Source: Meghimatium bilineatum (taxonomy: Eukaryota > Mollusca > Gastropoda > Stylommatophora > Philomycidae). Taken from it: a stretch of 64,000 bases of DNA. The translations under genes and the position numbers were made by a program. The notes under the pieces are model-generated. The model had not been told where the DNA came from. It saw only the letters and a list, made by a program, of their open reading frames with translations, and made no database searches. The stretch is taken from NCBI GenBank assembly GCA_034231615.1, contig CM067314.1, positions 6,848,501-6,912,500 of the forward strand, read 5' to 3'. This document shows positions 9,020 through 33,778 of this stretch, piece by piece. Within the stretch, counting starts at the first letter, position 1; each line of letters begins with the position of its first letter.

Positions 9020-9113
9020 TTTCTTCAATTAATTCTCGCAGAATTAAATTAATTTCACTAGACCAGTTACTGCATCCTTCAGGTAATTCAAGATTCAATT
9101 TTACTAGACCAGT
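9020..9113. repeat. Short repeat interrupted by R3 copy A, left part
   Basis: Diverged copies of ACTAGACCAGTTACTGCAT with TTCAATTAATTCTCG. The same repeat resumes at 10394-10465. ACTAGACCAGT at 9103-9113 is the left target-site duplication of the R3 insertion. Confidence 0.8.
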
Positions 9114-9253
9114 GGGGTGCAAAGGGAACGCATTGCTCTAGGCGGACCCAGGGTTAGCAGATAACCAAGATCCCAAATGTACCTCCTCGCGGTGCACACT
9201 GGAAACAGAAAAACAGCATCTCGAGCTGATTCTGGCCAAATAATTTGGGGATC
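9114..9253 (+). ncRNA. HDV-like self-cleaving ribozyme, R3 copy A
   Basis: Elements occur in the order of the HDV double pseudoknot. P1: GGGGTGC (9114-9120) with GCACACT (9194-9200), one A/G mismatch in this copy. A J1/2 insert contains a GGTTA/TAACC hairpin (9152-9166). P2: GATCCCAAAT (9169-9178) with ATTTGGGGATC (9243-9253). P3: ACC/GGT (9181-9183, 9191-9193) around L3 TCCTCGC. P1.1: GG at 9201. P4: CAGAA/TTCTG plus CAGC/GCTG (9206-9234). J4/2 has CCAA with a candidate catalytic C at 9236 or 9237. The predicted cleavage point is the 5' end of the element. HDV-like ribozymes at LINE 5' ends are established; this assignment is from hand folding. Confidence 0.72.
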
Positions 9254-10393
9254 GTGTCCGAGAATGTGGAGGTAGCAGATGGAAAGAGATTTGATTGCAT
9301 ATGGAGACAGAAATATCTCCGACACTACCAGCATCACCACATACAGAGAGACTGTCGACATACAGTGACGCCAGCTAGTCCAGTCAGAACATTGGAGGGG
9401 CGGCCAATGTAAAAGACACGTAAAGGTGGATGCATGGCGAGAAACAATTATATGTCATAATGAGTACAATGACACAATGAAAGGGCAGAACAGCGCCAGA
9501 GGGCAGCGCGAACTGCAAATATAAAGTGAAAAGTTCCTAGGAAAGGGGAACTACAAGCTCTGTTAGCTCGAGACGAGCTTCTAGTTACATGTGTTCCTTA
9601 TAGGCAGAGACCCAGACCCAATCATATGCGTTCGGAAAAGAAAGAAGGCCTAACCCAACTCTAATGTCGAGCCTTTCTAAACCAGAAATATGCTCGCGTA
9701 GAGAAAGGGTTCCGTACCCGATGGGGTTAGGCACAAAAAAAAGGGACAACGATGGCAGTCCTGGCCCAACTCTACTGTCAAGATTTCCTATACCGGAAAT
9801 ACACTTGCAGAGAGAAAGGGTTCAGTACCTGATGGGGTCAGGCGCTATTGGCACAAGGTCGCTCAGCACGAGAACGCCTTGCTCTCAAACGCGTGGTGTG
9901 AGACTCGGACGAGGGGTTCACGATGTCGGTGAACGACGCCTCGGGTAGGAAGGCGAACGAGCCAGGGTCCAACTCTTCTGGCGAGTTCTTCCTCATACGG
10001 AACCAGGCTCGCGGATGAGAAACGGTTCAGTACCCGATGGGCACAGGCACAGTAGGTCCAACTGCACGAGATGAGTTCATAGATGGTGGAACACCTCGTA
10101 CCAGATAGACGCGCTCGACAAGTGTCTTGGCGAATAGGCTCTATACACCAGCATGCCCGGCGACAGATAGAGGCTGTCTCGGACTAGGGACCAAACCCGA
10201 AATAAAGGAATGACGAAAATGGATGTGCTGGACCTCGGACGTCCAGGTCACAGAGTGGCCAACCGAGGTGCAAATAACACAGTTCTACTGTGGAACTTGC
10301 AGCACAACGTACTTCATGCTCCCCGGCTGAAATCACACGATAAATTCGTTGTGGTTACATGAGAGCGAACGCTGAAGAAGAAGAAGAAGAAGA
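9114..10393 (+). mobile_element. R3 non-autonomous retroposon, copy A (1280 bp)
   Basis: Bounded by an 11-bp duplication ACTAGACCAGT (9103-9113 and 10394-10404). It begins GGGGTGC at the first base of an HDV-like ribozyme fold (separate entry) and ends GAGCGAACGCTGAAGAAG with a GAA tail. The body (about 9650-10040) holds three diverged direct repeats built on CCCAACTCTA, AGAAAGGGTTC and GTACCYGATGGG. The last part resembles the 3' module of R1 and R2. Reading frames inside are short and mirror those of copy B, with no known domain, so it is probably mobilised in trans by a LINE. Orientation is set by the tail. Family name unknown to me. Confidence 0.88.
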
Positions 10394-10465
10394 ACTAGAC
10401 CAGTTACTGCATCATTCAGTTAATTCTCGAAGATTAAATTTTACTAGACCAGTTACTGTGCAATT
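10394..10465. repeat. Right part of the repeat split by R3 copy A
   Basis: Starts with the second ACTAGACCAGT duplication and continues the CAGTTACTGCATCATTCAGT pattern of 9020-9113. Confidence 0.8.
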
Positions 10466-21345: not shown

Positions 21346-21365
21346 GCTTAGGTGTAATGTGGTTG

Positions 21366-22594
21366 TTGTTTGTTTGTTTTGCGTTCGCTCCATTGTAACC
21401 AGCATGGATATCCATGCGCTTTCCGCCGGGAGCGTTATTACGTTGTGCCACCGTTATGCGCCTTGTAGGCCTAGCACATCCGATTTCGGCATGCCTTGAC
21501 AATTCGGGTGGGCTACCCTAGCCTGCGACAGCCTCCCTATCTGTCGCCAGGCACGCGTGTTTGTGGTGACTCTTCGCCCAGACGATTTTTGCTCACTTCT
21601 GTCTCGTACAAGGTGTTCCACTGTCTGTGAACTTGCCTCGAGTAATTGGACGTGCTGTGCCTGTGCCCATCGGGTACTGAATCGTTTATCATCCGTGAGC
21701 CTGGTTCCTTAAGAGGAAGAACTCAACAGAAGAGTTGGACCTCGGCTCTTTCGCTCTCTTAGCCGAGGTGTCATTCACCGACATCGTGAGCCCCTTGCCC
21801 AAGTTGGAGTCTCACACCACGCGTTTGAGAGCAAGGCGTTCTCGAGCTGAGCGACCGTGTCCCATTAGCGCCTGAGCCCATCAGGTACTGAACCTTTTCT
21901 CTCTGCAAGTGTATTTCCGGTATAGGAAAGCTTGACAGTAGAGTTGGGCCAGGACTGTCATCATTGTCCCTTTTTGCATAAGCCCATCGGGTACGACACC
22001 CTTTCTCTTCGCGAGCATATTTCCGGTTTAGGAAGGCTTGACATTAGAGTTGGGTTAGGTCTTCTTGCTTTTCCGAACGCCCATGATTGGGTCTGGGTCT
22101 CTGCCTATAAGGAGTAAACGTAGTTAGAAGCTCGTCTCGAGCTAACATAGCTTGTAGTTCACCTTTCCTTGGAACTTTTCACTTTCTATTTGCAATTTGC
22201 GCTGCCCTGTAGCGCTGTTCTGCCCTTTCATTTTGTCATTGTACTCATTATGACATATGTTTGTTTCTACTATGCATCCACCTATACGTGCTTTTTACAT
22301 TGGCCGCCCCTACAATGTTTTGACTGCACTAACTGGCGTCACTGTATGTCGACAGTGTCGTTGTATGTGGTGATGCTAACGGTGTCGGAGATATTGTCTG
22401 TCTCTTTTGCAGTCAAATCTCTTTCTATCTGCTACCTCCACACTCTCAGACACGATCCCCAAATGATTTGGCCAGAATCAGCTCGAGCTGCTGTTTTTCT
22501 GTTACCAGGGTGCACCACGAGGAGGTACATTTGGGATCTTGGTTATCTACTAATCCTGGGTCCGCCTAGAGCATTGCGTTCCCTTTGCACCCCC
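21366..22594 (-). mobile_element. R3 retroposon, copy B (inverted, about 1230 bp)
   Basis: The minus strand matches copy A along its length (GGGGTGCAAAGGGAACGCA start; three CCCAACTCT/GGTTCAGTACC internal repeats). AATGTGGTTG at 21356-21365 and 22596-22605 is the target-site duplication. The 3' tail here is (CAAA)n after GGAGCGAACGC, unlike the (GAA)n of copy A. The last 180 bp (AATCGGATGTGCTAGGCCTA, AGGCGCATAACGGTGGCACA) align with the R1/R2 3' module. Overlapping small frames are conserved with copy A but encode nothing known. Confidence 0.88.
22454..22594 (-). ncRNA. HDV-like self-cleaving ribozyme, R3 copy B
   Basis: Best-preserved copy. P1 GGGGTGC/GCACCCT is fully paired with one G-U. 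P3 ACC/GGT surrounds L3 TCCTCGT. The GG for P1.1 follows P1. P4 is CAGAA/TTCTG with CAGC/GCTG. J4/2 is GCCAAATC. P2 is GATCCCAAAT/ATTTGGGGATC with a bulged G. The first G lies within one or two bases of the target-site duplication, as expected if cleavage made the RNA 5' end. Confidence 0.75.
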
Positions 22595-22605
22595 GAATGT
22601 GGTTG

Positions 22606-27460: not shown

Positions 27461-27603
27461 GGGGTGCAAAGTGTCTCGTATTGCTCGTGTGCGGTCCTAG
27501 GGTTAGCAGATAACCAAGATACTAAAAGTACCTCCTCGTGGTGCACCCTGGAAACAGAAATACAGCTGCTCTTACTGTATTCTTGGTCATCTCGTTTAGG
27601 CTC
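27461..27603 (+). ncRNA. HDV-like ribozyme, R3 copy C (diverged)
   Basis: P1 GGGGTGC/GCACCCT, L3 TCCTCGT and P3 ACC/GGT are intact. P4 is rebuilt as CAGAAATACAG/CTGTATTCTTG (11 positions, one mismatch). P2 is weaker: CTAAA/TTTAG, where a C-G pair of copies A and B has become T-A. J4/2 no longer matches CNAA, so activity is doubtful. Confidence 0.6.
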
Positions 27604-27604
27604 G

Positions 27605-28013
27605 TGTCCGTGGATGTGGATGCTGTAGTTGGTTGTTGATGCTGTAGATGGATGTGGATGCTGTAGATGGATGTGGATGCTGTAGATGGATGTGGATGCT
27701 GTAGATGGATGTGGATGCTGTAGATGGATGGGGATGCTGTAGATGGATGTGGATGCTGTAGATGGATGTGGATGCTGTAGATGGATGGGGATGCTGTAGT
27801 TGGATGTGGATGCTGTAGATGGATGGGGATGCTGTAGATGGATGTGGATGCTGTAGATGGATGGGGATGCTGTAGTTGGATGTGGATGCTGTAGATGGAT
27901 GGGGATGCTGTAGATGGATGTGGATGCTGTAGATGGATGGGGATGCTGTAGTTGGATGTGGATGCTGTAGATGGATGTGGATGCTGTAGTTGGATGTGGA
28001 TGCTGTAGATGGA
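27605..28013. repeat. 18-bp minisatellite inside R3 copy C
   Basis: Unit TGGATGTGGATGCTGTAGA, about 22 copies with G/T and A/T variants. It occupies the place of GAATGTGGAGGTAGCAGATG in copy A, just 3' of the ribozyme. Long minus-strand frames (HPHPSTAS type) arise from the repeat. Confidence 0.95.
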
Positions 28014-33473: not shown

Positions 33474-33778
33474 AGTATTAACATTTTAGTATTACCATAA
33501 TGTTAACATTTTAGTATTACCATAATGTTAACATTTTAGTATTACCATAATGTTAACATTTTAGTATTACCATAATGTTAACATGTCAGTATTACCACAA
33601 TGTTAACATTTTAGTATTAGCACAATGTTAACATGTCAGTATTACAACAATGTTAACATGTAAGTATTGCCATAATGTTAACATGTTAGTATTACCATAA
33701 TGTTAACATTTTATTATTACCACAATGTTAACATGTTAGTATTAACACAATGTTAACATGTTAGAATTACGTTAAAGA
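33474..33778. repeat. 25-bp array, about 12 copies
   Basis: Unit ACATTTTAGTATTACCATAA plus TGTTA, starting immediately after the LINE-A tail duplication. Confidence 0.96.

Follow-up and report, generated by a model that had tools for sequence, protein, structure and literature searches.

A dispersed family of non-autonomous retroposons in Meghimatium bilineatum with a putative HDV-like ribozyme at the 5' end

Retroposons of the window and the anatomy of their 5' ends

The window, i.e. the whole 64,000-nt stretch of Meghimatium bilineatum DNA analysed here, contains two retroposons on opposite strands (copies A and B), both headed by a sequence that reads as an HDV-like ribozyme, and a third, decayed ribozyme sequence (copy C). 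Copy C is of the C-type, one of three subfamilies (A, C and E) distinguished below. The features are listed by their positions in the window.

9114..10393, + strand: retroposon copy A, with a (GAA)n tail
9103..9113, + strand: 5' target duplication of copy A, ACTAGACCAGT, at a repetitive site
10394..10404, + strand: 3' target duplication of copy A, ACTAGACCAGT
9114..9253, + strand: putative HDV-like ribozyme of copy A (helix order; drz-agam-1 at 22.7 bits, below the cut-off; own covariance model; descriptor scan)
9114..9120, + strand: P1, 5' strand, GGGGUGC, pairing with 9194-9200; predicted cleavage at 9113/9114
9121-9168, + strand: J1/2, 48 nt, with two hairpins
9124..9149, + strand: P1.2-like hairpin of J1/2, GGG 9124-9126/CCC 9147-9149 and CGC 9129-9131/GCG 9142-9144
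9152..9166, + strand: second J1/2 hairpin, GGUUA/UAACC, conserved without covariation
9169..9179, + strand: P2, 5' strand, two pairs of which covary with 9242-9253
9181..9193, + strand: P3, ACC 9181-9183/GGU 9191-9193, outer pair A-U, but G-C in the E-type
9184-9190, + strand: L3, UCCUCGC, with CC 9185-9186 for P1.1
9194..9200, + strand: P1', GCACACU (GCACCCU in copy B and most copies examined)
9201..9202, + strand: GG of P1.1, pairing with CC 9185-9186
9206..9234, + strand: P4, CAGAA/UUCUG and CAGC/GCUG
9236, + strand: candidate catalytic C in J4/2, GGC-N-AA, where N is mostly C or U
9242..9253, + strand: P2', with G9250 bulged
21366..22593, − strand: retroposon copy B, with an (AAAC)n tail and the target duplication CAACCACATT
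22454..22593, − strand: putative ribozyme of copy B (P1 with seven of seven pairs; drz-agam-1 below the cut-off; own covariance model)
27461..27603, + strand: decayed C-type ribozyme (copy C), with U at the catalytic position

Full copies of the elements are about 1.1-1.4 kb long and end in (GAA)n or (AAAC)n, mostly following GAACGC. In six elements tested there was no stop-free stretch longer than 147 codons and no match to a LINE protein. With target duplications, a microsatellite-like tail and no long ORF, these elements are non-autonomous non-LTR retroposons. The Pol III promoter or small-RNA head that defines SINEs in the strict sense was not seen: ARAGORN found no tRNA in the window, a scan of the six elements with the A- and B-box consensus words gave three mismatches for the best A box and two for the best B box, and Rfam detected no other small-RNA head.

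Some observations concern the bodies of the elements and their surroundings. The body of copy A contains three internal repeats of 80-90 bp (9646-9732, 9757-9843 and 9966-10048; 76-79% alike), and some other copies seem to carry more of them. A 3' domain of about 160 nt (CGGATGTG...GAACGC) is common to several families (L064, L067, L068, L069, copies A and B); in L068 it stands immediately behind a C-type ribozyme, the whole element being about 340 bp long. A 19-bp minisatellite (TGGATGTGGATGCTGTAGA, 27611-28013) lies directly behind copy C and seems to have grown from the element itself, since in several C-type elements the ribozyme is immediately followed by GTGGATGTGGATGCTGTAGATGG. A 25-bp AT-rich minisatellite occupies 33478-33770 and gives weak matches to the miRNA mir-2012 on both strands. 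In the genome, haemocyanin exons form two large clusters (C15:48.69-49.24 Mb and C22:44.15-44.27 Mb). The whole genome has 50 matches to PF14830, a molluscan haemocyanin domain, compared with zero in 14 control genomes.

Comparison with the HDV-like fold confirmed that its parts are present in both copies in the canonical order. The order P1-P2-P3-L3-P3'-P1'-GG-P4-J4/2-P2', proposed in a preliminary description of this locus, was verified by inspection of copy A, and the sequence satisfies the nested double pseudoknot order P1-P2-P3-P1'-P4-P2'. Two further details of that description were correct: L3 is closed by ACC/GGU, and P2 has a bulged G (G9250). Across copies, L3 reads UCC[U/A]CG[C/U]. 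A seven-pair P1 starting at the first base of the element had been reported as well; the start holds, and all seven pairs, including a terminal G.U, form in copy B, whereas copy A has six of seven, also with the terminal G.U, G3 being opposite A9198. With this difference in P1, copy B is the better example. Copy A is also mismatched at the innermost position of P2 (G9179, A9242). The first P1 pair is G.U in 26 of 30 copies, and the two P1.1 pairs are C-G in 27 and 24 of the 30.

The likely catalytic base is C9236 and not C9237, because it is C9236 that fits the pattern GGC-N-AA, which we take to be the HDV consensus marking the catalytic C. Among 96 distinct copies, 88 have C at this position, and the two A's are present in 95 and 94. 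The P1.2-like hairpin is lengthened by UC/GA in C-type copies, and both J1/2 hairpins form unforced once P2 and P3 are imposed (four of the four sequences folded).

Family size and integration sites

The exact 22-nt core occurs in 8,941 copies in the M. bilineatum genome (1.61 Gb, 32 contigs), while a reversed-pattern control yielded none. Three whole-genome DNA searches provided the best 40 each of 1,627, 4,276 and 2,746 candidates, and 22 copies, later 59 ribozyme instances, were aligned. All 22 aligned copies open with GGGGTGC and have unrelated flanks, 20 of them having been picked by their 5' end. A fairer sample is that selected by the body: 17 of its 19 other copies begin at base 1 or 2, the remaining two at 626 (L034) and 37 (L045). 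Among 40 copies selected by the core only (the first 40 of the 8,941, from one chromosome, a few of them sharing flanks as segmental duplicates), 31 have GGGGTGC, 38 have GGCNAA and 30 have both. Two near-identical copies, L109 and L112, carry a second GGGGTGCACACT 17 bases upstream of G1.

Many of the copies read are nearly identical, pointing to a recent spread. This bears on the possibility that the ribozyme was active in an ancestor, while cleavage is now irrelevant and many copies, including copy A, are passenger relics. Pair 3 of P1 is G.A in six of 56 distinct A-type copies, copy A among them, copy C has no catalytic C, and the GCACAC variant, seen in 7 of 22 near-identical copies, may have spread; P1 mismatches have been blamed for the loss of in vitro activity of HDV-like ribozymes in other species (accessible text of PMC3774820). 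The same text, however, gives about a quarter of R2 ribozymes one or two mismatches at the top of P1, and the joint retention of GGGGTGC and GGCNAA in most of the core-selected copies, together with the many near-identical ones, argues against this possibility. We consider the relic scenario, which is compatible with self-cleavage as the main reading, unlikely.

An 11-bp target duplication had been said to place the 5' end of copy A independently at 9114. The duplication is real, but the word ACTAGACCAGT is also found at 9057-9067 and 10443-10453, and a surrounding stretch of about 57-60 bases recurs on either side of the element (9057-9113 and 10394-10453); Tandem Repeats Finder did not list this repeated site. 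Because the site itself is repetitive, the duplication of copy A is ambiguous and, taken alone, weak evidence, and it is the duplications of other copies that settle the 5' end. Of the 59 instances, the 54 with three or more G among the first five bases were scanned for duplications of 8-20 bp with no extra bases and at most two mismatches, depending on length. A duplication ending right before G1 was found in 35 of the 54 copies, in 34 of them with at least 10 bp. Duplications of at least 10 bp were found in 12, 24 and 28 of the 54 when the start was shifted by −3, −2 and −1, in 29, 14 and 3 when it was shifted by +1, +2 and +3, and in 0 to 8 with the start at +3, +5, +8, +12, −5, −8 or −12. 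Some matches are unsound, among them those of L033 (TA repeat), L060 (AT-rich) and copy A (repeated site, later place), and in two of the 54 copies, with less than 1,000 bases downstream, a duplication could hardly be found. The duplication of copy B (CAACCACATT, 22596-22605 and 21356-21365), which leaves two extra bases (CG) before G1, was missed by the scan and read by eye. Since the duplications end before G1, integration mostly starts at the predicted ribozyme cut site.

Covariation, constraint and folding

The preliminary description had named a lack of covariation in P1, P2 and P4 among genomic copies as evidence against a ribozyme. In our data there is covariation in P2, and a two-base insertion gives P4 of the C-type additional pairs, whereas P1 is nearly invariant and never covaries in the 96 distinct copies (117 instances less 21 identical ones; L150 and L151 had been excluded beforehand as unrelated). 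Each copy was mapped pairwise, and pairs were counted for the A-type (n = 56), C-type (n = 22) and E-type (n = 18). Pair 6 of P2 is C-G in 54 of 56 A-type and 16 of 18 E-type copies and U-A in 19 of 22 C-type copies; pair 10 is U-A in the A-type (52/56) and A-U in the C-type (14/22) and E-type (17/18); at pair 3, most C-type copies (18/22) have an unpaired U.C. The outer pair of P3 is A-U in 77 of 78 A- and C-type copies and G-C in all 18 E-type copies, which were chosen by that pattern. Between subfamilies, both partners thus differ in two pairs of P2 and one of P3; these represent few events, and the helices may have been kept by compensatory change.

For an alignment of 30 copies, the covariation score of the whole structure was 0.065 versus 0.046 in shuffles, none of 500 being as high, and 0.012-0.025 when the structure was slid along the alignment; pairs with double changes (3 versus 2.8 in shuffles) and further pair types (22 versus 22.6) showed no excess. 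Genome-wide, a looser pattern found the G-C outer pair of P3 in 357 places (control, 3), with the rest of the core kept in 83 of 100 of these that were listed. Single changes of this pair comprise 85 G.U and 35 A.C, compared with 8,941 A-U. The excess of G.U over A.C was considered as a sign of selection and dismissed, as CpG decay of E-type copies could yield the same.

The ribozyme is less divergent than the sequence behind it: over 19 rows (copies A and B and the 17 body-selected copies that have a 5' end) the divergence is 3.8% in the ribozyme (101 of 2,657 letters) and 8.0% in the next 560 bases (838 of 10,433), the stretch right behind the ribozyme being intermediate (5.6%). L3 alone is not low (6.8%), owing to its U/A variant. 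A- and C-type elements are alike at 74-81% over about the first 210 bases, and their bodies are unalignable in most of 14 C-type loci.

A covariance-model search of the window, suggested in the preliminary description, matched the core of both copies with the Rfam model drz-agam-1 (RF01787), at 22.7 bits for copy A (E 0.013 in 201 nt) and 23.3 bits for copy B (E 0.0083 in 191 nt), but below its gathering score of 37; no HDV-type model of Rfam attained its cut-off. The E-values over the whole window are 4 and 2.8, respectively. In copy A the match (9159-9249) spans the core and has unrelated bases placed as P1, because J1/2 (9121-9168) is long. In the whole-genome search drz-agam-1 gave nothing at E 0.001, and the positive control was likewise silent, which makes this negative result uninformative. 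Our own covariance model scored copy A, one of its training sequences, at 168.5 bits. A descriptor of P1, P2, P3, L3, GG and J4/2, written after the sequence was known, found copies A and B in the window and nothing in 150 dinucleotide-preserving shuffles, which argues that the pattern is not due to chance.

Folding was consistent with the pseudoknot in three of four sequences. Adding the P1 duplex to the constrained fold, with no penalty for the pseudoknot, gave −45.6 versus a plain minimum of −39.2 for copy B, −58.1 versus −51.9 for one C-type copy and −49.8 versus −43.0 for one E-type copy, while in copy A the total did not beat the plain minimum (−38.2 versus −40.7). The minimum-energy fold of copy B was no better than that of shuffles (z −0.32), a value of little weight for a pseudoknot. 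RNAalifold of 30 copies predicted P2 and P3; the 5' strand of P1 paired with J1/2 instead, and the proposed P4 was absent.

Conservation of the 5' block would also be expected if it served as an internal promoter or as an RNA domain bound by protein, with an HDV-like fold that is incidental or structural and does not cleave. Trypanosomatid Pr77 is both a promoter and a ribozyme (accessible text of PMC4035085), a B-box-like word with two mismatches (GGATCGTGTCC) is located at element position 136, and the second J1/2 hairpin is conserved but shows no covariation. Nevertheless, chance alone would yield about 0.24 such B-box words (a hand estimate), the best A box is poorer still, and ARAGORN found no tRNA in the window. 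A promoter requires neither GGC-N-AA nor covariation in P2 and P3 nor a P1 at base 1, and we judge this explanation improbable. Overall, the reading of the 5' end of the retroposon as an HDV-like ribozyme is supported, while its cleavage is inferred.

Proposed mechanism, origin and relation to known systems

The first 140 nt of the element very probably encode an HDV-like self-cleaving ribozyme that cuts before G9114, the freed RNA being retrotransposed by a LINE protein. Read-through RNA from an upstream start would fold as a nested double pseudoknot, and C9236, as the general acid, together with a metal ion would cut before G9114 co-transcriptionally, if the chemistry is that of known HDV ribozymes. 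The freed RNA would begin exactly at base 1 of the element and retain the entire ribozyme. A LINE protein would recognise its 3' end and start target-primed reverse transcription, and the insertion would produce a target duplication, mostly of 10 bp or more. As each copy keeps the ribozyme, a new copy could be excised from any transcript it lands in.

A LINE with pieces of endonuclease (PF14529), reverse transcriptase (RT; PF00078) and RNase H (PF00075) ends in GAACGCA(GAA)n, and GAACGC[A/T](GAA)n is the only sequence common to the retroposons and one LINE. This LINE may supply the machinery, which is a guess since the shared end is short. The search for its RT gave 50,594 first-look candidates. 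Our covariance model found no ribozyme in L065 or 13 other LINE loci, of which only L080 and L081 reach the shared 5' start, and Rfam found none at the 5' start of the L080 LINE; accordingly, no autonomous element bearing this ribozyme was found among the LINE loci sampled.

The elements could be deletion derivatives of a ribozyme-bearing LINE of the same genome, a proposal that concerns their origin and is compatible with self-cleavage of the present copies. Such an origin is described for NARTc from L1Tc and for R2 SIDE from R2 (accessible text of PMC4035085 and PMC3414825), and the LINEs read are a small sample; on the other hand, no ribozyme was found in the LINE loci, two of which reach the shared 5' start, and the six elements lacked LINE-protein matches. 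We give this origin an even chance. At C1:127557432, an E-type ribozyme that precedes the RT of a LINE by 2.9 kb was a candidate for the autonomous element. It turned out to be a separate insertion, which also speaks against the proposal: this E-type element carries an AAAC-type tail and a duplication (CAAATAGTTT) of its own, and a 5'-truncated LINE follows about 140 bases further. A second case of an E-type copy near a LINE RT, at 6.5 kb, is on C8. Alternatively, the ribozyme might be a free-standing 5' head module common to several non-autonomous families, with differing bodies and tails ((GAA)n, (AAAC)n), that was not inherited from a ribozyme-bearing LINE, self-cleavage from host transcripts replacing an internal promoter; we put this forward tentatively and with some doubt.

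Other ribozyme families were sought by the core pattern ACCTCCWCGYGGTHNNNNNNGG, found in 233 places (control, 1). The 100 listed include apparent decayed copies and a GGTCCAGTAGGG-like group. Ten places of this group (L083-L092) form a single different repeat in an alignment, to which L085 and L092 contribute only in part; our model detected no ribozyme in the ten, nor did Rfam in the four of them tried. The candidate was rejected as a chance core in an unrelated dispersed repeat. The chance occurrence of the core word ACCTCCACGCGGT in this repeat is a caution for motif-only searches.

Non-LTR elements headed by HDV-like ribozymes are an already known kind, as the preliminary description had it, with R2 SIDEs and NARTc/SIDER as examples. 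It is well supported that the present family is a new example of a known trick and no new type of machine, self-cleavage again being the inferred part. Among the matches listed in a search of titles and abstract openings, a source in which subscription journals are mostly uncovered, there was no non-autonomous element of molluscs carrying an HDV-like ribozyme. One large ribozyme is available here in thousands of natural variants. With at least 8,941 exact cores, many near-identical copies and readable target duplications, the family could serve as a test bed for whether dispersed elements owe their 5' ends in vivo to ribozyme cleavage and whether a promoter can be replaced by a ribozyme.

The R2 SIDE and the R2/R1 hybrid SIDE of Drosophila (accessible text of PMC3414825) are likewise non-autonomous and combine a 5' HDV-like ribozyme with a LINE-type 3' end, in the hybrid by joining the ribozyme to the tail of another element. 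According to the same text, R2 SIDEs are rDNA-specific, are called rare and derive from R2/R1, whereas the present elements are dispersed and no parent was found. NARTc, RIME and SIDER of trypanosomatids (accessible text of PMC4035085), relatives of L1Tc/ingi, are also dispersed non-autonomous elements with a 5' ribozyme; they have the 77-nt Pr77 ribozyme and known LINE parents, whereas the ribozyme here, in a mollusc, is 140 nt long and its J1/2 is structured.

At the level of the ribozyme, Rfam drz-agam-1 has the same core letters, ACCUCCUCG-GGU, despite the low scores. The 5' ribozymes of R2 have a P3/L3 core word identical to that of C- and E-type copies (R2Dm core CCUCCUCGUGG; accessible text of PMC5035012) and likewise tolerate a long J1/2 (accessible text of PMC3774820). 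R2 targets 28S rDNA and, as stated in the latter source, often uses target sequence in P1, while P1 lies inside the element here. The drz-Agam-2-1 ribozyme (accessible text of PMC4908430) likewise has an extended P2 and a base-paired J1/2 (P1.2) and is cut at the first P1 nucleotide; its sequence differs, and J1/2 has two hairpins here. Webb and colleagues report that the structured J1/2 and the long P2 speed drz-Agam-2-1 by bringing P1 and P2 together (accessible text of PMC4908430), and the J1/2 hairpins and the 11-bp P2 of the present ribozyme fit this design.
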